Shown: piece by piece, positions 54,978-64,000 of the stretch
How the letters are laid out: every line of letters starts with the position of its first letter
Numbering within the stretch: position 1 is the stretch's first letter
NCBI GenBank assembly: GCA_006226425.1
Contig: SBGX01000023.1
Coordinates: forward strand, 71,603-135,602
Direction: 5' to 3'
Source of the DNA: Bacteroidota bacterium
Lineage (GTDB): Bacteria; Bacteroidota; Bacteroidia; Flavobacteriales_D; Crocinitomicaceae
DNA length: 64,000 nt
Notes under the pieces: model-generated
Told to the model about the DNA's origin: nothing
Database searches by the model: none
Seen by the model: only the letters and a program-made list of their open reading frames with translations
Made by a program: the position numbers and the translations under genes

Positions 54978-54985
54978 CAAAGTTA
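54978..54985 (-). promoter_or_regulatory. -7 element of fahA
   Basis: Minus-strand TAACTTTG, a full TAnnTTTG match, 19 bases before the fahA ATG. It overlaps the last bases of the methyltransferase gene, so fahA-spoT can be expressed apart from the glycan genes. Confidence 0.5.
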
Positions 54986-55903
54986 TTGATTTTGACTTTT
55001 TTTGATCCCTACCGCGTGCCAGTAAGGTGTATTTTCCGAAAAACGAATTTGTTCCAGTCCTGCTTCGGTCATCATCTGTTCGATTTCTTTCCTTGAAAAA
55101 CGCTGTTCCAGTGGAGTTCCGAATCGATCTAAGGCATCGTTTCGAACAATATTCAGTGATTTTCCAATGTAATAAGAAAGAGGAACTTTTTGATACAGTT
55201 TGGAATTTGGAGTCAGGGCTTTCACAAGTTTTCCCAGTCCGATGAAGGGTAAATAAATGGTGAAGGCAATGATGTCACAGACAACACTTTTGAGTCCCTG
55301 TGGCATTTTACAAATCATTCTTCGAAAGAAAGTAGAACAATGGAAAATAAATTTGTAAAAGGCGCCTTTGTTGTCCAGACTGTAATATAAGTAAACCAAA
55401 AATTGTCCACCTGGCCGAAGCTTGGAAACGGCATCTTTCATGGCCTGAGAAGTATCAGGAATATGGTGTAAAACTCCTAAGCTAAACACGAAATCAAAAC
55501 TGTCATTGGCAAAGGGCAAATCGGAAACCCCGGCGACACTCAGGCGCACATTTTGTTCTTCGCGAAGTAATTTCGCCGCTGGATAAATCGCTTTACTAGG
55601 GTCGATGGCATCAATATGAGCAACGTGTTTGGCCAGAAACTTGGTCCATCTCCCGGTCCCACAACCGACGTCAAGGGCCCTTGCTTCTCTTAAGGCTTCC
55701 AGGTCAATGATATCGAAATATTCGTTCCCAACCTGATGAATCTCTTGTTGATCAAAGTCGTCAAATTTTTCCCATTCCTCCCCAAAGGATTCTACGGTGA
55801 CGGTATCAATGTTTCGGTCGCCAATCGGAAAGTGTGAGATGACTTTTCCTTCTATTTCCTCTTCTTTGCTTGCTGGGATCGAATATGGAACTGCTTGACT
55901 CAT
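54983..55903 (-). CDS. Class I SAM-dependent methyltransferase
   Basis: A 306-residue enzyme. The SAM-binding motif I ALDVGCGTGRWTKFLA is at about residues 76-91, followed by IDAIDPSKA, SDLPFANDSFDFVFSLGVLHH and LRPGGQFLVYLYY. A middle part of 60-70 residues (KFIFHCSTFFRRMICKMPQG) with hydrophobic stretches is unlike small methyltransferases. It is the last of the glycan-associated genes in the run, 30 bases after a glycosyltransferase. It may methylate a sugar or lipid in the same pathway; the target is not readable. A weak TAACTTTA lies upstream. Confidence 0.85.
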   Translation of the reverse strand: MSQAVPYSIPASKEEEIEGKVISHFPIGDRNIDTVTVESFGEEWEKFDDFDQQEIHQVGNEYFDIIDLEALREARALDVGCGTGRWTKFLAKHVAHIDAIDPSKAIYPAAKLLREEQNVRLSVAGVSDLPFANDSFDFVFSLGVLHHIPDTSQAMKDAVSKLRPGGQFLVYLYYSLDNKGAFYKFIFHCSTFFRRMICKMPQGLKSVVCDIIAFTIYLPFIGLGKLVKALTPNSKLYQKVPLSYYIGKSLNIVRNDALDRFGTPLEQRFSRKEIEQMMTEAGLEQIRFSENTPYWHAVGIKKSQNQ

Positions 55904-55933: not shown

Positions 55934-57091
55934 TTATCCCCGTTCAATTGTGATGGCTCTTAGGTAAAACTCTTCCAGTTGTCGGATCATTCTGGAAAGG
56001 TGATATTTGTCCTGAAGCATTTCATAGGCTTTCTCTGCCAGTTTCTGCTGATGTTCGGGAGCGAGAAGCAAACTTCTGATGGCCGTCGCATATTTAGGCA
56101 CATCATAGGGAGGAACCAGGACTCCGGAGATATTATTTTCGAGGAGTTCAGAAGGGGAAGGGACATCAAAAGCAATGATTGGTCTCTTGACAGACATGGC
56201 TTCTGCCAGGACGATTCCAAACCCTTCTGAGATCGAAGGGAGCAGGATGATATCTGAACTGGCCATGTAATCACGTGCATTTTTTTGGAAACCAGTGAAA
56301 ATGACATTGTCTTCCAGTCCTTTGTCCTGAACCATCTGTTTCAGTTCCTGTTCCAGTTCTCCCCAACCAACGAGTACCAGTTTGATCTCCGGAAATTCAT
56401 CTTTCAGAATTTCAACGGATTCAATAGCAAAACGATGTCCTTTAAAGGCGGTCAACCGTCCGACAATACACAATTGCTGGGGTCCAAATCGCAGATTGGG
56501 ATCATTTTTGAACTGATTGTCAAATTCAAAGCCATAGTAGATCAGATCAATAGCATTGGTGGGGGAAATATCCGCACCGATAAATAAATTTTGAATCCCT
56601 TTTGAAATGGCAAAACTTCGGTTCGTATTTTTTTCAGCTAAGCGGGAAATGTACCAGTATTTGTTTTTAGTCTTGTGTTTTGGATCAAAGCCAAATTTGT
56701 TGATGTACCACTCTTCATATCCGTGCTTTCCGGAAACAAGAATCATTTTTCGGTGAAAAAAACGTTTCGCAAGACTCAAGGTCAGATCGGCGTGCAACAA
56801 GTGAGAATTGATCAGGTCAAAGTGCCGACAAAGTTTGGCAATACCTTTCAGAGATTTGAGAAGGGAAAATCCTTTAATGTCAAACGAGTGATGTTTGATT
56901 GCTCGTTCATCTAATAATTTTTTGAAGGCTTCTGTTTCCTGTTGATCTACATAAAGGATGAGCATTTCCACCTGATGCCCTTTCGCTTTTAAACCAGAAA
57001 TGGCATTCAGCAAAAAGTTTTCACTCCCGGCAACTCCTCGCACGTAGGTAGCCTGTAAAATTTTCATGGATGAACCTCGAAGCTCTGTCAT
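55934..57091 (-). CDS. Glycosyltransferase, GT4 type
   Basis: A 385-residue GT-B enzyme. The N-terminal domain starts MKILQATYVRGVAGSENFLL (after a short lead from the assigned start). The C-terminal donor-binding domain has LCIVGRLTAFKGHRFAIES, VIFTGFQKNARDYMASSDI, and the E-x7-E signature in LPSISEGFGIVLAEAMSV. It is cytosolic and would add a sugar in glycan assembly. Its start overlaps the previous gene by four bases, so it belongs to the asnB operon. An internal ATG at 57067 (MKILQATYVRG) is a reasonable alternative start. Confidence 0.88.
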   Translation of the reverse strand: MTELRGSSMKILQATYVRGVAGSENFLLNAISGLKAKGHQVEMLILYVDQQETEAFKKLLDERAIKHHSFDIKGFSLLKSLKGIAKLCRHFDLINSHLLHADLTLSLAKRFFHRKMILVSGKHGYEEWYINKFGFDPKHKTKNKYWYISRLAEKNTNRSFAISKGIQNLFIGADISPTNAIDLIYYGFEFDNQFKNDPNLRFGPQQLCIVGRLTAFKGHRFAIESVEILKDEFPEIKLVLVGWGELEQELKQMVQDKGLEDNVIFTGFQKNARDYMASSDIILLPSISEGFGIVLAEAMSVKRPIIAFDVPSPSELLENNISGVLVPPYDVPKYATAIRSLLLAPEHQQKLAEKAYEMLQDKYHLSRMIRQLEEFYLRAITIERG

Positions 57092-58200
57092 CTTTTCTTT
57101 TTGCGTTTAGATGATTTTTTAAGCGTACTGGCAATGAGCCTTTTGTATTGATCGAACATCCGCAGGTTGGAGTAGTTTTTTTCGATCTTTTTTCTGGCAT
57201 TTTGTCCCATAGAGTCCCTGATCTCTTTGTGCTCAATAAGGTAGTTGATCTTTTGAGCTAATTGGGAGACGTTTTTATTCTCATAGAGCAGTCCACTTTT
57301 TTTATGTTCGATCAGGTTATTGATCCCTGCAATATTGGACCCGATGACGGGAAGTTCGCAAGACATGGCCTGAAGGATGGAAGTGGGCAGGGTTTCCCCA
57401 AAGGAAGCATGAACATATATGTCCGTGTTTCGGAACAGTTCGATAATCTGTTTTTCATTGAGCAGTCCGCATAAATCGACCTTGTCCTCCAGCTCATTTT
57501 TTCGAATGAATTCGTTGATCTCATTCCAGGTGGCTCCGTTTCCGGCGATGGTCAGTTTGGCTCCATCTACTTGTTTCATTGCCATGATCAGTGTCTTGTG
57601 ATCTTTCTGGATTGAGAAGCGCGAGATCATCGTAAGATGGATATAGTCCCGCTCCTGATTTTGATGAATTTTATTAAAAATGGCGGTTTCAATGCCATTG
57701 GGAATGATTCTGAGTTTGTGTCCGATATTCAATTTATAATTCTTCAGATAATCCCGCTTGGACTCTCTGGAAAGGAGCACTACCTTGTCGGAAAGAATTC
57801 CGGCGATGTATGAAGAAATGTTCTCCACACGACGTTTTACAACAATCGATGTATGTTCGATTCCAATGATCTTTTTTCGATACACTTTTGCGTAAATCCA
57901 GGTCGGAATAATCAAACTAATAGAGTGAAGCAGAATGACTTCTGGTTTTTTGCGACGCAATTCCTGGAACACGCGCCACCAGGAAACAAGGTCCAATCCT
58001 TTTCTCTTTTTGATATTCAAATACGGGATTTTTAATTCCTCGGAATTGTCAATATGCGATTGAAGAATGCTCTCGATCCCATAAAAAATGAGTGAATGCT
58101 TGAACTCATGTTCCAAATCGGCTTTGATACAGGAAAAAACGACGGAAGAGTGGCCTCCCAAACCTGAAAAAAGAATATGTGTTATTTTCATTTGTTCCAT
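57088..58200 (-). CDS. Glycosyltransferase, GT4 type
   Basis: A 370-residue GT-B enzyme. The acceptor domain starts ITHILFSGLGGHSSVVFSC. The donor domain has LRIIPNGIETAIF, MISRFSIQKDHKTLIMAM, VDLCGLLNEKQIIELF, and VHASFGETLPTSILQAMSCE with the E-x7-E-like pattern. The C terminus is extremely basic (KKSSKRKKKR), which may hold it to the membrane. It overlaps the upstream gene by 13 bases and the downstream gene by four, so all three glycosyltransferases are translated together. Donor and acceptor are unknown. Confidence 0.88.
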   Translation of the reverse strand: MEQMKITHILFSGLGGHSSVVFSCIKADLEHEFKHSLIFYGIESILQSHIDNSEELKIPYLNIKKRKGLDLVSWWRVFQELRRKKPEVILLHSISLIIPTWIYAKVYRKKIIGIEHTSIVVKRRVENISSYIAGILSDKVVLLSRESKRDYLKNYKLNIGHKLRIIPNGIETAIFNKIHQNQERDYIHLTMISRFSIQKDHKTLIMAMKQVDGAKLTIAGNGATWNEINEFIRKNELEDKVDLCGLLNEKQIIELFRNTDIYVHASFGETLPTSILQAMSCELPVIGSNIAGINNLIEHKKSGLLYENKNVSQLAQKINYLIEHKEIRDSMGQNARKKIEKNYSNLRMFDQYKRLIASTLKKSSKRKKKR

Positions 58201-59492
58201 AGTTTTTCCAGTGTTTGTACAATAATTTGAGACTGAGATTCCCGGGAGTAGGCCTTGATTTTATCTGAATTACCTTCGTATGGAACAGTTCCGGATTGCT
58301 CCCAGGCATCATAAAGTTTGCAAAGATGGGCCAGACATGCCTCCTGCTTGTCAAAAGATTTTCCGGCTCCAGTCTCTTCCAGTAAATTGTCCAGGACCGA
58401 GTGATCTTTGGGGACGACCAAAATATTTCTTCCCGAACCGAGGTATTCGAACATTTTTCCGGAATAAATGCCTTTATAGCCACTCCATACCGGGTAAAAC
58501 AACAGGTGGGCATTCCGGGTTTCCTGCAAGGCGATTTTTCGGTCTACAAAGCCTGTAAGGGTCAAAACTTCCGGATTGATGTTCGCTTCAATCTCCCGGG
58601 CAACGGCCTCATTGATCTTGGCTCCGATGAATTTGATTTCGATTTTTTCCGTGCCTCTTTCTTGTAAGAAGGATTGAATGGCTTGAAAGAAAAATTGTTT
58701 ATTCTGTTCCTGATACAGGGTTCCAAGACAAAGGATTGTGAATTTATCCAGTTTTTGAGGTGGATAGTCATTGTACAGGGTACTTTCATAGCCATTTTTG
58801 ACCATGATGACTTCTTTTCCGGGAGCAATGTCCTCAAATACATCCGAGAAACCTTCGCTACAGGAAAGAATTTGATCGTTTCTTTTCATCCATTTACGGA
58901 GATAGAAGCGGTGGAAGAAGAAACGAAGCGTATTTCTTTTAAGGCGATCGTTCTTATTGACCTTTAACAGATCGTTGTTCCAGACATCTCGAAAATCTGC
59001 GAGCCAGTGAAATTGATGTTTTTTCTTGAGTTTGGAAACGACTTTGATCCCGATATAAGGACCCGCCGAATTGATCACTGCATCAACTGGCTCTGTTTTC
59101 AGATAGGCATCCAAAAAAGGGAAGTAGTTCCGGTACATGTCCCGGTCAAAATCGATTTGTCCAAAACAATGAGCAGCTAATTCGATCAGGAAGCGGAGTA
59201 GTTTGCTTCCTTTGATCCATGATTTTTGACTGAGCCGATAAAGCGGATGTTGCCTGAAGGGAAGGTGAATGACCTTGTATCCTTCAGGTGCCAGTCTCGT
59301 TTGAACGGCTTGATTCGATTCCGCGAGATATTCATCCCAGTTTTTTTCCTGTCCGGTCCATTGTCGGGTGACGACGGTTACGTCATATCCGGCCTGATGC
59401 AATGCCATCGCCCACGATTTGGGACGATGCGCTGCAATGACGTTGCAGGGTTCAAAAAAGTGAGCCAGAATAATGATCTTCTTTTTCGTCAT
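58188..59492 (-). CDS. Glycosyltransferase, GT4-like, longer N-terminal domain
   Basis: A 434-residue GT-B protein starting MTKKKIIILAHFFEPCNVIA. It contains the motif AHRPKSWAMALHQAGYDVTVVT and ADFRDVWNND, then the donor domain with FTILCLGTLYQEQNKQFFF, LTLTGFVDRKIALQETRNA and YSGKMFEYLGSGRNIL, which holds the late Glu. The features (HRP/W, DFRD) place it in the group of sugar transferases seen in capsule and O-antigen loci. It overlaps asnB by four bases. Confidence 0.86.
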   Translation of the reverse strand: MTKKKIIILAHFFEPCNVIAAHRPKSWAMALHQAGYDVTVVTRQWTGQEKNWDEYLAESNQAVQTRLAPEGYKVIHLPFRQHPLYRLSQKSWIKGSKLLRFLIELAAHCFGQIDFDRDMYRNYFPFLDAYLKTEPVDAVINSAGPYIGIKVVSKLKKKHQFHWLADFRDVWNNDLLKVNKNDRLKRNTLRFFFHRFYLRKWMKRNDQILSCSEGFSDVFEDIAPGKEVIMVKNGYESTLYNDYPPQKLDKFTILCLGTLYQEQNKQFFFQAIQSFLQERGTEKIEIKFIGAKINEAVAREIEANINPEVLTLTGFVDRKIALQETRNAHLLFYPVWSGYKGIYSGKMFEYLGSGRNILVVPKDHSVLDNLLEETGAGKSFDKQEACLAHLCKLYDAWEQSGTVPYEGNSDKIKAYSRESQSQIIVQTLEKLWNK

Positions 59493-61195
59493 GATTCAAA
59501 ACACTTGATGAATTCACAGGCAATATAATTTCTCCAGCCATCCTCACAGGGAGTGTATTGGCGTTCTGTCAAAAAGTTCTTACAGGATGCTTCATCATAC
59601 AATTTATCCATCCAGGCATGTTGTGGAGCTTCATAACCTATCTTGTCCTTCCGTTCAACGATTGCATCCGGAACAATTCCCCGAATGGCATTTCTGAGCA
59701 CGTATTTGGTGGTTCCATCATGATACAATTGCTCATCAGGCAGACTGAATCCATATTCGACCAACTCATGATAGAGAAAGGGAAGTCTAACTTCCACACC
59801 AAAGGCCATTGAAACGCGGTCTGCATTGCTAAGTAGTTCCTGAAGTCGGTGAAAAGTTTCATATTTCAGGCGCTGTTTAAAGGTACGGGCATGATAAAAT
59901 GCTCCTCTAGGGTGCTTGATCAGGGCTAACAATGGGTGTGCCCAAAGCATTTTGCCAAGTGGGTACTGTTGTCCGTAAAGTTTTCGATATGCTTTTCTGG
60001 CTCTCACAAAACGCCTCCATTTCCCTTGCGCCAGATACTGCATTAACAAATAGTTCTTAAAGACAGGGTAACCGGCGAGGTATTCATCTGCTCCCTGGCC
60101 GTCCAGCACGACCTTCACTCCCTCTTCTGAAACCCGTTTCATCACAAACCAACTGGCACTGATTGAAAAGGAGCCAAAGGGGTACTCAAGGTGGTAAATC
60201 ATTTTTTGGATGTCCTGAGATACTTCCTGCGATTCCGGATAAATGTCATGGTGTTTTGTTTTGGCCTTTAGTACAACCTGATCAATCCATTGTCCTTCAT
60301 CGCGTCCCTCGGTAAATCTGGCCGAAAAGGTCTGTTGATTCGCATCCGGACCAATAATGTCCCTTACAAAACAGACGACACTGGAAGAATCCAGTCCGCC
60401 GGATAAACTAGATCCAATTGGAACGTCACTTCTCAATCGTCGTTTAAGCCCCCGTTTAAATAGTTCTCTAAATTTGAGCGCATAACCTTCGTCATGGTCG
60501 CTGGCAGCTTTTTTCTTGAGGTCAATATCGTAGTAGCGCTCAATCGTTAGATTTCCCTCCTGAATGCTGAGGTAATGCCCTTGTTCAAGAACAAAAATGT
60601 CTTCAAAGAAAGTTTCGTTTTTTCCGCTGATTAAATAGTGTAGCAGAAATTCTTCCATATTCTTTCTGGAAATTCGCTGTGGGACTCCGGCCGCAAAGAG
60701 GGCTTTTATTTCAGAGGCAAAGCAAAATCGTTCTCCATTCCAATGGTAGTGGAAGGGTTTTTCCCCAAAACGATCGCGAGCACAAAAAAGTCTTTTTTCC
60801 TGTTCGTCCCAGATGACAAAAGCAAACATTCCATCCAGTTCCTGAAGGCATGCTTCTTTTTTGGAGTCGTACATGGCCAGGAGCACTTCCGTGTCACTAG
60901 CACTTTGGAACTGGTAGCCCGCTTCCTGTAAACGCTCTTTGAGCTCCAGGTAATTGTAGATTTCTCCGTTAAAAGTGATGCTATATCGATCCTTGAAATG
61001 CATAGGTTGCGCGCCCCCTTCACTGAGGTCAATGATAGAGAGTCTTCGGTGACCAAGTCCCACCTGCGCATTCGGATTCAGCCATTGTCCTTCTCCGTCG
61101 GGTCCCCGGTGAACAATTCGATCCGTCATTTTTCGGATGATTTCCGGTGTCAATGACCCTGCTCTGATATCATAAATACCAGCTATGCCGCACAT
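59489..61195 (-). CDS. asnB: Asparagine synthase (glutamine-hydrolysing) of a glycan locus
   Basis: A 568-residue class II amidotransferase. Cys2 (MCGIAGIYD) is the glutaminase nucleophile, with HRGPDGEGQW and RLSIIDLSEGGAQPM in the glutaminase domain. The synthetase domain has the PP-loop SLSGGLDSSSVV near residues 260-270 and YPFGSFSISASWFVM, VLDGQGADEYLAGYP. Many such paralogues sit in exopolysaccharide operons, where they may amidate a sugar acid instead of making free asparagine. Here it leads three glycosyltransferases, so that is likely but unproven. It has a strong promoter and a 50-base leader. Confidence 0.92.
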   Translation of the reverse strand: MCGIAGIYDIRAGSLTPEIIRKMTDRIVHRGPDGEGQWLNPNAQVGLGHRRLSIIDLSEGGAQPMHFKDRYSITFNGEIYNYLELKERLQEAGYQFQSASDTEVLLAMYDSKKEACLQELDGMFAFVIWDEQEKRLFCARDRFGEKPFHYHWNGERFCFASEIKALFAAGVPQRISRKNMEEFLLHYLISGKNETFFEDIFVLEQGHYLSIQEGNLTIERYYDIDLKKKAASDHDEGYALKFRELFKRGLKRRLRSDVPIGSSLSGGLDSSSVVCFVRDIIGPDANQQTFSARFTEGRDEGQWIDQVVLKAKTKHHDIYPESQEVSQDIQKMIYHLEYPFGSFSISASWFVMKRVSEEGVKVVLDGQGADEYLAGYPVFKNYLLMQYLAQGKWRRFVRARKAYRKLYGQQYPLGKMLWAHPLLALIKHPRGAFYHARTFKQRLKYETFHRLQELLSNADRVSMAFGVEVRLPFLYHELVEYGFSLPDEQLYHDGTTKYVLRNAIRGIVPDAIVERKDKIGYEAPQHAWMDKLYDEASCKNFLTERQYTPCEDGWRNYIACEFIKCFES

Positions 61196-61386: not shown

Positions 61387-63120
61387 ATGAAGAACTTTAC
61401 CCAATTGAAAAAGAACCTGAAAAAGGATTTCGATGCGTTTAAAAAAATAAGAGTAGCTGTGCTGGGGGATACGGCCACCCAGTTCCTGGTTCAGGCGATC
61501 CGGGGATATGGATATGAAGAATCCATGGATCTGGAGATATTTGAAGCTGAATTCAATCAAATCGAACGACAAATACTTGATCCGTCCTCCGAACTCTATG
61601 AATTCAAGCCGGAAGTAGTCATTTTGTTTCAGTCCAGTCACAAACTCTTGGGGAAATACAATAAAAAGAAAGACGGTCATGGAACCTTTGCGGCAGATCA
61701 GTTAGAGCATTTGAATAATTTGCTCGATAACCTGGGTAATCAGTTGAACGCCAAGGTGATTTGCTATAACTTCCCGGAAATCGACGATGCTGTGTACGGC
61801 AGTTATGCCAACCAGATAGGCTCTTCGTTCCTCTATCAGCTGCGCTCGCTGAACATCAAATTGATGGAACTGGCCGAAGATCGAAACAATCTGTTTATTT
61901 GTGATATGTCCTCCATTCAGAATCGGATTGGAAAGGAGCGACTGTTTCAAGCTTCCATTTATGTGAATACGGAGATGGTACTCAGTATTGATGCACTTCC
62001 GGAAGTTGCGGCTAAAACAGTATCTATTATCGGAGCCTTCCAGGGAAAAATGAACAAATGCCTGATCATCGATTTGGATAATACCATGTGGGGAGGAGTG
62101 ATTGGAGATGATGGGATTGAAAACATCCAGATCGGGGGCCTCGGAATAGGGAAAGCCTTTACTGAATTCCAGTACTGGTTTCGCAAGTTGAAAAACCGCG
62201 GGATCATCCTGGCCATTTGTAGTAAGAATACGGAATCAGTAGCCCTGGAGCCATTTGAGAAGCATCCGGATATGGTCATCCGAAAAGATGATATTGCTGT
62301 TTTCGTGGCTAACTGGGAGAATAAAGCAGACAATATCAGGTACATTCAGGAAATTTTGAATATTGGTTTTGATTCGATGGTCTTTTTGGATGACAACCCC
62401 TTTGAACGCAACATCGTTCGGGAAAATATTCCGGGAATTACTGTTCCGGAACTTCCCGAAGACCCGGCCGAATACCTGGAATATCTGTACGGTCTAAATT
62501 TGTTTGAAACGATTTCTTATTCGGGGGCGGATGAAAAACGAACCAAACAATACCAGGTAGAAGCACAGCGAAATCAGGTGAAGAAACAATATGTGAATGA
62601 AGAAGAGTTTCTGAAAAGTTTGGAAATGATTTCGGTGGTAGAACCATTCAATAAGTTTAATACCCCTAGAGTAGCCCAGTTGTCGCAGCGCTCTAACCAG
62701 TTTAACCTCAGAACAGTTCGTTATACAGAGGCAGATGTGGAACGCATGTCTCAATCGGATGATTTTCACACCTTCACTTTCACGCTGGAGGACAAATTCG
62801 GAGATAATGGCCTGATTTGTGTGATTATTCTGAAAAAGGAGAACGAAGAAAGCTTGTTTATAGATACCTGGTTCATGAGTTGTCGTGTCCTAAAACGAGG
62901 AATGGAGAACTTTGTACTGAACACGCTGGTAGAGTATGCCCGTGAGAAGGGATTCAAGTATCTACAGGGAGAATATATCCCGACGGCCAAGAATGAAATG
63001 GTTCGGGATCATTATAGAAACCTGGGCTTTAAAGAGCAAGACGGTCGCTGGATTTTGGAGACGGCCTCCTATCAAAATAATACTACATTTGTACAAGCAA
63101 ACATGAAAATTTATGGATAA
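61387..63120 (+). CDS. HAD-IIIC family FkbH-like protein
   Basis: A 577-residue three-part protein. Residues 1-215 form an SGNH-like N-terminal domain (VAVLGDTATQFLVQAIRGYG, VVILFQSSHKLLGK). The HAD domain has IIDLDNTMWGGVIGDDG with D229, D231 and T233, then ICSKNTESV, and FLDDNPFERNIVRENIPG. The C-terminal GNAT-like region has the FkbH motif SQRSNQFNLRTVRYTE and LVEYAREKGFKYLQGEYIPT. FkbH proteins load a glyceryl unit from 1,3-bisphosphoglycerate onto an ACP in some polyketide pathways. The ACP gene here overlaps its end by eight bases, so the same carrier-loading role is likely, but for a glycan locus. All catalytic Asp residues are present. Confidence 0.9.
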   Translation: MKNFTQLKKNLKKDFDAFKKIRVAVLGDTATQFLVQAIRGYGYEESMDLEIFEAEFNQIERQILDPSSELYEFKPEVVILFQSSHKLLGKYNKKKDGHGTFAADQLEHLNNLLDNLGNQLNAKVICYNFPEIDDAVYGSYANQIGSSFLYQLRSLNIKLMELAEDRNNLFICDMSSIQNRIGKERLFQASIYVNTEMVLSIDALPEVAAKTVSIIGAFQGKMNKCLIIDLDNTMWGGVIGDDGIENIQIGGLGIGKAFTEFQYWFRKLKNRGIILAICSKNTESVALEPFEKHPDMVIRKDDIAVFVANWENKADNIRYIQEILNIGFDSMVFLDDNPFERNIVRENIPGITVPELPEDPAEYLEYLYGLNLFETISYSGADEKRTKQYQVEAQRNQVKKQYVNEEEFLKSLEMISVVEPFNKFNTPRVAQLSQRSNQFNLRTVRYTEADVERMSQSDDFHTFTFTLEDKFGDNGLICVIILKKENEESLFIDTWFMSCRVLKRGMENFVLNTLVEYAREKGFKYLQGEYIPTAKNEMVRDHYRNLGFKEQDGRWILETASYQNNTTFVQANMKIYG

Positions 63121-63349
63121 AGAGCAGGCACTCAAGGAGACGAATGAAATTTTCGTCGATATGTTTGATGATGAAGATATTGTACTTAGTTACGAGACTA
63201 CCGCTGAAGATGTGGAAGAATGGGATTCTTTGACGCATATTCAATTGGTGGTTGCGATTGAAAAACACTTTAAAGTACGCTTTACCTCCAAGGAAATCCA
63301 GAGCTGGCAGAACGTTGGAGAAATGCTGGACTGTATTTTGACAAAATAA
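63113..63349 (+). CDS. Acyl carrier protein
   Basis: A 78-residue ACP. The phosphopantetheine attachment Ser is S39 in EEWDSLTHIQLV. It is acidic with four predicted helices (for example IFVDMFDDEDIVL and QLVVAIEKHFKVRF), and differs from the housekeeping AcpP in having WDSLTH rather than GADSLD. It overlaps the FkbH gene by eight bases and is followed one base later by the MaoC-like gene. It is probably the dedicated carrier for the acyl group made by its neighbours. Confidence 0.93.
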   Translation: MDKEQALKETNEIFVDMFDDEDIVLSYETTAEDVEEWDSLTHIQLVVAIEKHFKVRFTSKEIQSWQNVGEMLDCILTK

Positions 63350-63350
63350 G

Positions 63351-63743
63351 ATGCTTTTTAAGGCAGGAGATAGCTACGAACATCAGTTTTTGGTCAGCGA
63401 GGAACTGTATAGCGGCTTCATTCACTTGTTTGAAGATCGGAATCCGCTGCATACCAACGAGGATTTTGCCCAGGGAAAGGGTTTTGAATCCAGGGTCATG
63501 CACGGAAATATCCTCAATGGTTTCCTGTCCTATTTCATTGGAGAATGTCTTCCAACAAAGGATGTCATTATCCACACACAAGAAATTCAGTATAAAAAAC
63601 CGGTCTATTTGGGAGATCAGTTGGATTTTTCTGCAACGGTGCAGGATTACTACGAATCTGTTCAGGCAGTCGTTTTTAAATATCAATTTAAGCGGGAAGG
63701 AGTTGTGTTGGCCAAAGGAAAGATACAAATCGGTTTGATATGA
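63351..63743 (+). CDS. MaoC-like hot-dog dehydratase/hydratase
   Basis: A 130-residue hot-dog protein. The catalytic pair of R-specific hydratases is present in LFEDRNPLHTNEDFA (D29 and H34), followed by the family helix GFESRVMHGNILNGFLS and the strand IQYKKPVYLGDQLDFSATV. It would add or remove water at an enoyl thioester, probably on the ACP coded just before it. It overlaps the reductase gene by four bases (ATGA). Confidence 0.9.
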   Translation: MLFKAGDSYEHQFLVSEELYSGFIHLFEDRNPLHTNEDFAQGKGFESRVMHGNILNGFLSYFIGECLPTKDVIIHTQEIQYKKPVYLGDQLDFSATVQDYYESVQAVVFKYQFKREGVVLAKGKIQIGLI

Positions 63744-64000
63744 AAGTTTTGATTACCGGTGGCGCTTCAGGACTGGGAGAAGCTTTGAGTCGGTCCTTGT
63801 CTTCAGAGCAGGATTTACAGGTGTATGCCACTTATTGTCATTCGGAAGAAAAAGCCAAAAAAATAGCATCTGAGTTTTCAAATTTGACAATGATCAAGTG
63901 CGACTTTGGAAATGCGGATGAGCTGTCATCGCTTTGTGAGCAGATTTCTGAATGGGACATTGATGTGCTGATCCACAACGCATATTCGGGTACTTTTCTG
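63740..64000 (+). CDS. Short-chain dehydrogenase/reductase, cut by window end
   Basis: Only the first 87 codons are seen. The N terminus MKVLITGGASGLGEALSRS has the TGxxxGxG NAD(P)-binding motif. The strand IKCDFGNADEL and the NNAG-equivalent IHNAYSG, as HNA, follow. The rest, including Tyr-x3-Lys, lies beyond the window. Next to an ACP and a MaoC protein, a 3-oxoacyl-ACP reductase role is likely. The start overlaps the MaoC-like stop. Confidence 0.88.
   Translation, partial: MKVLITGGASGLGEALSRSLSSEQDLQVYATYCHSEEKAKKIASEFSNLTMIKCDFGNADELSSLCEQISEWDIDVLIHNAYSGTFL

Follow-up and report, generated by a model that had tools for sequence, protein, structure and literature searches.

A six-gene cassette from a Bacteroidota genome predicted to feed an MBOAT-SGNH acylation exit from an FkbH-loaded carrier protein

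A 64,000-nucleotide stretch of a Bacteroidota bacterium of the Crocinitomicaceae, here termed the window (assembly GCA_006226425.1, contig SBGX01000023.1, positions 71,603 to 135,602 of the forward strand; G000:C29:71603-135602, where G000 denotes the window's genome and C29 the contig), ends within a compact cassette of six genes. In order, these encode an FkbH-type glyceryl loader, an acyl carrier protein (ACP), a MaoC-type hydratase/dehydratase, an SDR reductase, an MBOAT O-acyltransferase and an SGNH-like partner. This architecture is well supported, and the reading to which we incline, with modest confidence, is that the cassette constitutes a carrier-protein-fed MBOAT-SGNH acylation pathway, for which lactyl is the proposed cargo. 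The genes for the MBOAT and the SGNH-like protein lie wholly beyond the window edge at position 64,000, on the same contig and in the same operon, and it is this MBOAT-SGNH exit, outside the stretch on which the initial annotation was based, that is the main point. We infer that the ACP is the donor, lactyl the product and a surface glycan the acceptor.

The first gene (61387..63120, plus strand) encodes a 577 aa protein comprising FkbH_N, HAD-IIIC and a C-terminal part, which matched TIGR01686 at 311.8 bits (cut-off 146.65) and PF21211 (FkbH_N) at 246.6 bits (cut-off 27), and of which residues 3-380 match the solved structure of the uncharacterized protein BF1531 (PDB 3slr, E 2.9e-150). Its DxDxT nucleophile motif (D229, D231 and T233) is kept in all 81 proteins compared. 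An 8-base overlap joins it to the gene for the 78 aa ACP (63113..63349, plus strand; PF00550, 25.5 bits, cut-off 20.8), in which the attachment site S39 is conserved in 76 of 76 proteins compared; this ACP gave no match to the DltC model at E 0.01. A 1-base gap separates it from the gene for the 130 aa MaoC protein (63351..63743, plus strand; PF01575, 41.8 bits, cut-off 27), the D-x-N-x-x-H motif of which (D29, N31 and H34) is kept in 34 of 34 proteins, and the profile of which has as its best solved relatives 3-hydroxyacyl-thioester dehydratase 2 and an (R)-specific enoyl-CoA hydratase. The SDR gene then overlaps by 4 bases; its frame is open at the window edge (63740..64000, plus strand) and complete at L002:13343-14065, where position p of L002 is window position p + 50397. 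The 240 aa product matched PF13561 at 114.1 bits (cut-off 27) and its YxxxK residues, Y148 and K152, are kept in all 34 SDRs compared (32 cassette proteins and two others from the same loci), while the catalytic SDR serine is not among the columns conserved at ≥95%. The positions and junctions of these four genes, and the key residues given for the first three, had been described in the initial annotation and agree with a re-reading of the sequence and with family scans, as does its expectation that the cassette runs past the right edge.

Five bases after the end of the SDR gene begins that of the 481 aa MBOAT (L002:14071-15516), which matched PF03062 at 67.2 bits (cut-off 27) and has two solved sequence relatives at E 0.1, both of them DltB. 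Its H325, which aligns to H336 of DltB, is present in 81 of 83 homologues, with gaps in the other two. The protein ends in FIYFQF, an instance of the C-terminal acyl-shuttle motif FxYxxF, which is found at the C-terminal end of 76 of the 83 homologues; YxYxxF takes its place in two (L025 and L072) and the remaining five are shorter proteins (172-449 aa) lacking the motif-bearing end. For fold prediction, carried out on the L006 homologues of the MBOAT and the SGNH protein, the MBOAT alignment comprised 53 sequences of at least 465 aa chosen from 73 rows, and in these the histidine, the tail tyrosine and the last phenylalanine are invariant. The resulting model (mean pLDDT 88.6) matched DltB best (Z 28.6, 370 residues aligned, rmsd 4.1), the match covering residues 1-403, and its last 80 residues form two long helices (419-438 and 454-471) followed by the tail. 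This agrees with the description, in the available text of PMC12148441, of FxYxxF as borne by the MBOATs of MBOAT-SGNH pairs on two helices missing from DltB.

The SGNH-like partner (L002:15473-16606, 377 aa as listed) matched no family above cut-off in the family scans. An alignment of 71 such partners of MBOAT nevertheless revealed the G-x-S and D-x-x-H signatures of SGNH enzymes, with G95, S97 and H357 in all 71, N114 in 65 and D354 in 53. A methionine column at residue 17, occupied in 59 of the 71 and lying directly past the MBOAT stop, suggests that this residue is the true start (position 15521 of L002). The predicted fold, based on 49 of 70 alignment rows, has a mean pLDDT of 79.3. Three Foldseek hits were obtained at E ≤0.001, all DltD structures and one titled D-alanyl-lipoteichoic acid synthetase (E 1.4e-4 to 8e-4, TM-scores 0.37-0.40). 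VIA-align gave Z of 11 to 12 to many SGNH enzymes, with PatB (12.1) and DltD (11.1; 247 aligned, rmsd 6.0) nearly tied.

Every biochemical step of the pathway is predicted from sequence and gene order. By analogy with its family, FkbH would take the phosphoglyceryl group of 1,3-bisphosphoglycerate and load a glyceryl unit onto the ACP. MaoC would then remove the C3 hydroxyl by dehydration between C2 and C3, giving a 2-hydroxyacryloyl enol expected to tautomerise to pyruvyl-ACP, the C2 ketone of which the SDR would reduce with NAD(P)H to yield lactyl-ACP. On the cytoplasmic side, the DltB-like MBOAT may take the acyl group from the ACP, to which gene order points as the donor, onto the tyrosine of its own FIYFQF tail, as its homology suggests. 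The SGNH serine would accept the group in turn and esterify a hydroxyl group on a glycan of the cell surface, most likely the product of flanking genes. Such a chain would follow the scheme outlined for PatAB and Dlt in the accessible part of PMC12148441, in which the acyl group passes from a carrier or CoA thioester to the tail tyrosine, then to the SGNH serine and finally to the polymer.

The cassette resembles the Dlt system (DltA, DltC, DltB, DltX and DltD) in that a carrier, a DltB-like MBOAT and a DltD-like SGNH protein are encoded together, the ACP gene lying three genes ahead of that for the MBOAT, and in the proposed use of a carrier acyl thioester as donor; according to excerpts of PMC11035591, DltB takes its acyl group from the carrier DltC. 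By contrast, the cassette loader is FkbH rather than an AMP-forming ligase, the shuttle motif forms part of the MBOAT itself instead of residing on a DltX, and editing enzymes are inserted. Classification as Dlt was rejected because the Dlt family models were not matched: the six genes encode no AMP-binding enzyme (the DltA-like gene of this genome lies on contig C1), the MBOAT scored 172.5 bits against TIGR04091 (cut-off 375) and the SGNH protein had no PF04914 match at E 0.01. Another point of comparison is provided by the PatA-PatB-type MBOAT-SGNH O-acetyltransferases, to which AlgI and WssH belong. PatA-PatB shares with the cassette the two extra MBOAT helices, the C-terminal FxYxxF tail and the SGNH partner, but is described in the available text of PMC12148441 as lacking a carrier and using an acyl-CoA donor, whereas in the cassette a loader and carrier come first.

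The genome holds five MBOAT places. At L108 and L109, MBOATs with the tails FIYFQF and FIYLRF are each followed by an SGNH-like gene, with no ACP match in stretches of about 10 kb, and at L111 there is a further MBOAT ending in FVYLQY. L110 (G000:C1:203500-214500) is a DltA-DltC-DltB-DltD-like operon in this genome of a Gram-negative phylum. Its DltB-like MBOAT, which lacks the tail motif, scored 251.5 bits (cut-off 375), the DltC-like carrier 43.8 bits (cut-off 68), the DltA-like ligase 451.3 bits (cut-off 476) and the DltD 171.9 bits to PF04914 (cut-off 22.7), all four proteins being below the NCBIfam equivalog cut-offs. Comparison across L108 to L111 therefore sets the cassette apart, within one cell, from either known arrangement.

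Glyceryl loading in tetronate, NRPS and PKS pathways likewise relies on the FkbH family and an ACP. Tetronates are made by FkbH-ACP-FabH sets, the FkbH proteins of these pathways activating glycerate on carriers (PMC4979870, in excerpt); similarly, an FkbH-like domain has been proposed to load glycerate, subsequently methylated, in suomilide (PMC13122637), a paper mentioning both FkbH and MBOAT but, from its accessible passages, not concerning this system. That the cassette serves a secondary-metabolite glyceryl pathway, PKS or tetronate-like, is highly improbable: an FkbH-ACP-KSIII arrangement does occur in five related loci, but the cassette itself has no ketosynthase or FabH partner and exits by MBOAT-SGNH. 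The ketosynthase family PF00109 was found at four places in the genome, on contigs C17, C4, C13 and C1, and none on C29; a FabH-type (KSIII) query gave no match at E 0.001 across the 40 kb that L002 and L003 comprise; family scans detected no FabH-like partner among the six cassette proteins; and flippase-like and pseudaminate genes follow. The initial annotation had judged that this was not an ordinary fatty-acid or polyketide set, a view upheld here, as the absence of a ketosynthase from the contig and of a FabH-type match led to rejection of such a set. It had also proposed looking beyond position 64,000 for an acyltransferase, a ketosynthase or a flippase, and of these the MBOAT and a flippase-like gene were found. 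Elsewhere, a ketosynthase domain at G000:C17:112037-112753 lies within a 4656-residue open frame that is probably a megasynthase. A role in anti-phage defence was rejected, as PADLOC gave no match for the three proteins scanned (FkbH, MaoC and MBOAT).

The organisation of the cassette was compared across 80 related loci, the best 80 of 173 FkbH relatives, in which FkbH is present by design and some of which are near copies; most are labelled as Bacteroidota, with single ones labelled Methylobacter, Treponema and Deltaproteobacteria. Genes on the same strand, and no further from FkbH than 3 kb upstream or 4.5 kb downstream, were counted as near, with distance and identity thresholds (for example, 40% for SDR) set after the first neighbourhood results had been viewed. 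The simple script used for gene calling missed some genes, such as the window's MaoC, and the neighbourhood counts used stop-to-stop frames. An ACP lies beside FkbH in 79 of the 80 loci, downstream in 78, which makes chance not plausible as the cause of the association. An MBOAT is near FkbH in 61 (upstream in five). The loci with a KSIII near FkbH number five (L022, L031, L036, L069 and L073), each having FkbH-ACP with a FabH-like KSIII and none an MBOAT beside it (p 5e-4) or anywhere else in the locus; L031 and L036 hold an additional PglD-like family member. In such loci, the KSIII may either extend the chain or provide another exit for the unit.

Between loader and exit, MaoC is near in 33 loci and a close SDR in 31, all of them with MaoC (31 of 33 MaoC loci, against none of the other 47). 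On the FkbH tree the MaoC label changes 22 times, at least nine of these on well-supported branches, and the SDR changes with MaoC in 7-8 of 9 independent tree pairs and never in the opposite direction (median p 0.008); MaoC and SDR act as a pair. A methyltransferase is near in 16 of the 80 loci and a VOC/methylmalonyl-CoA-epimerase-like protein in 14, counts that vary by method (13 and 13 by another), with a TylF-type methyltransferase alongside the first methyltransferase family in two; none of MaoC, methyltransferase and VOC is near in 27. MaoC and VOC never occur together (VOC in none of the 33 MaoC loci versus 14 of the 47 others, Fisher p 2.4e-4), as expected if MaoC and SDR erase and reset C2. 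Under the glyceryl to pyruvyl to lactyl scheme, these two genes would be expected to co-occur, a ketosynthase would be unnecessary and a C2 epimerase would be redundant. In other genomes, methyltransferases or the epimerase-like protein may replace the editing pair, so that the unit would be glyceryl, O-methylglyceryl or an epimerised variant. 'Plain' cassettes group together on the MBOAT tree (9 changes, against a shuffled mean of 17.1), but the FkbH tree of the 56 loci concerned shows just as much clustering, so MBOAT specificity is not singled out.

Direct exchanges are evident in two pairs of loci. L006 and L009 share FkbH (87%), MBOAT (88%), SGNH (86%), flanking glycosyltransferases (87%, a fragment, and 81%) and a methyltransferase (55%), yet MaoC-SDR stand in L006 where VOC stands in L009. 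Similarly, L011 and L040 have common flanks (truA 89%, ABC exporter 90%, oxidoreductase 97%) and related cassettes (FkbH 81%, MBOAT 66%, SGNH 64%), with MaoC-SDR in one and a methyltransferase and VOC in the other. Both swaps indicate that the loader and exit are conserved while the editing slot between them is exchanged. At L027:8455-9195 and L032:12585-13328, two methyltransferase families, one TylF-type, lie ahead of the ACP at FkbH loci; these pairs would fit a di-O-methylglyceryl unit such as that on the flagellin of Campylobacter jejuni. In that species, di-O-methylglyceric acid is found on flagellin pseudaminic acid (PMC3068675, in excerpt) and the fkbH-domain gene cj1302 is among the glycosylation genes compared (PMC7099621, in excerpt). 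The likeness to the cassette extends to a glyceric unit on a pseudaminate glycan and an fkbH-domain gene, while an MBOAT-SGNH route is not described in the available text of these papers. In an assembly of Flavobacterium paronense, the FkbH-to-MBOAT cassette is present in three nearly identical copies (L020, L026 and L037), two in opposite directions on one 25-kb contig, for which an assembly artefact is possible.

A number of observations weigh against the proposed pathway, some of them concerning its exit. No MBOAT is near FkbH in 19 of the 80 loci, including L044 of the window's own family, although five of these stop ≤2.2 kb from FkbH and in three an MBOAT occurs elsewhere in the locus; six of the 61 loci with a nearby MBOAT showed no partner gene following it. 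The two other MBOAT-SGNH pairs of this genome, at L108 and L109, have no carrier nearby, and an acyl-CoA donor, as for PatA, is possible. These two pairs, which have the same kind of tail, and the loci without a nearby MBOAT would suit an arrangement in which an ordinary acetyl-CoA O-acetyltransferase, formed by MBOAT and SGNH, happens to adjoin the other genes, the FkbH product passing instead to a separate cytoplasmic transferase acting on a sugar nucleotide. For F. psychrophilum, the prediction is that an ACP-bound acyl group reaches an O-antigen sugar through a cytoplasmic PglD-type transferase (PMC6519341, in excerpt), and the PglD-like members at L031 and L036 point the same way. This alternative nonetheless appears quite unlikely, given that 61 loci have a same-strand MBOAT close to FkbH, that the other 19 include the five that stop soon after FkbH and the three with an MBOAT elsewhere, and that the family scan found no PglD-type transferase among the six cassette proteins.

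Other contrary points concern the lactyl group. The solved relatives of the SDR are mostly 3-oxoacyl-ACP reductases, whereas lactyl would require reduction at C2, and the exclusion of VOC by MaoC is not significant when relatedness is allowed for (2-5 tree pairs, median p 0.25). L006 and L055 combine MaoC-SDR with a methyltransferase, which the simple scheme does not predict and which could yield O-methyl-lactyl. L050 has MaoC without a close SDR, the place of which, between MaoC and MBOAT, is taken by a 540-aa radical SAM protein (L050:12346-13965). The SDR of L064 lies upstream and is more distant, and in G634 the MaoC-SDR pair is placed away from FkbH-ACP. It is accordingly conceivable, if somewhat unlikely, that the loader, carrier and MBOAT-SGNH exit are as proposed but that MaoC and SDR edit the unit otherwise, for example with the SDR oxidising the C3 hydroxyl and MaoC acting later, such that the group is not lactyl; the methyltransferases of L006 and L055, the radical SAM protein of L050 and the relatives of the SDR all favour this. 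MaoC and SDR, by contrast, are a classical dehydrate/reduce pair and here form a unit. Furthermore, the window's cassette has no additional redox gene between FkbH and MBOAT, and the epimerase-like VOC is absent wherever the pair occurs.

The initial annotation had proposed that a short hydroxyacyl unit, made or edited by the carrier-based set, is passed to a surface glycan, specifically to a sugar made by the asnB-glycosyltransferase genes on the divergent strand. The first part gains support from the MBOAT, SGNH-like, flippase-like and pseudaminic-acid genes beyond the edge; the second is not supported in that form, since pseudaminate genes are also near and an L010-type cassette lies outside recognised glycan genes, and the asnB side as sole source of the acceptor was rejected. 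On that side, the asnB-type gene (59489-61195, minus strand; PF00733), first of the neighbouring glycan genes, is followed by three glycosyltransferase-like genes, at 58188-59492 (below the Pfam cut-off, 21.5 versus 28.5 bits), 57088-58200 and 55934-57091 (both above), and then by a methyltransferase gene (54983-55903). Past the SGNH gene, on the opposite strand, lies a flippase-like gene (PF01943, 57.2 bits, cut-off 28.2), then genes for two near-polysialyltransferase proteins and a PhyH-like protein slightly below its cut-off, and then a pseudaminic-acid set comprising PseI, a formyltransferase, PseG, PseF, PseC and PseB, of which PseI, PseG, PseC, PseB and PseF are all above their NCBIfam cut-offs.

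Within this region, the proteins encoded at L002:18086-19306 and L003:275-1507 (minus) each scored 22.0 bits against the alpha-2,8-polysialyltransferase Pfam family (cut-off 23.3) and are candidate pseudaminyl transferases. The formyltransferase (L003:2565-3476, minus) lies between PseI and PseG and suggests an N-formyl pseudaminate; PseH was not recognised there, though not searched for. Around the 80 loci, glycan genes were found in only 36, a low estimate from a homology count with 13 query proteins, and a general glycan link is not supported by the count alone. In the L010-type locus, common to several Flavobacterium records, a similar cassette has a truA-ABC exporter pair on one side and a pyridine nucleotide-disulphide oxidoreductase gene on the other, and none of the flanking genes scanned in L010 was recognised as a glycan gene.

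The distribution of the cassette is patchy. At E 1e-60, FkbH was found in 10 of 120 genomes of the family, one of them the window's own, while the four other listed members of the genus gave no match. Among 150 genomes of the order, only that of the window yielded the MaoC protein. G565, the genome of L044 and from the same family, has FkbH-ACP-MaoC-SDR with no MBOAT match in 14 kb. A reverse search with the MaoC profile recovered 12 of 395 genomes of the phylum at E 1e-15, with strong matches in G000 and G424; in the other ten, FkbH, ACP and MBOAT were not found in about 3.4 kb around the match. Among 395 genomes of G424's order, MaoC occurred at E 1e-20 in six places in five genomes, five of the six adjoining FkbH and ACP and the sixth being that of G634, where FkbH-ACP are elsewhere in the same genome. 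These places overlap the 80 loci, G424 being the genome of L056 and one G952 place being L005. Because the distribution is patchy, it would fit an exchanged surface-variation cassette.

As far as we have seen, carrier-fed MBOAT-SGNH acylation has so far been described only for D-alanine. A 2023 review holds, in the text available, that acyl-CoA is used by all MBOATs except DltB (PMC10213974), and a 2025 paper, again from accessible passages, that non-Dlt MBOAT-SGNH pathways lack a carrier protein (PMC12148441). Within the open-access literature searched, no description was found of FkbH feeding an MBOAT, nor of lactyl transfer by a carrier-linked DltB/MBOAT in Bacteroidota, nor, in the passages available, of glyceryl-to-lactyl conversion by FkbH modules such as that of bryostatin. 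The evidence tips slightly towards a second, independent carrier-fed MBOAT-SGNH lineage in Bacteroidota and a few others, which would be loaded from a glycolytic intermediate, have a swappable editing slot (with proposed contents of none, MaoC-SDR, methyltransferases, epimerase or radical SAM) and decorate surface polymers with ester-linked lactyl, glyceryl or methylated glyceryl groups. With just six proteins, the whole pathway could be reconstituted, and at the swapped loci the products are predicted to differ while loader and exit stay almost unchanged. If this reading is correct, FkbH enzymes would gain a role outside natural-product assembly, and envelope acylation fed by a carrier, far from being peculiar to D-alanine, would offer a major Gram-negative phylum a modular way of making unusual esters.

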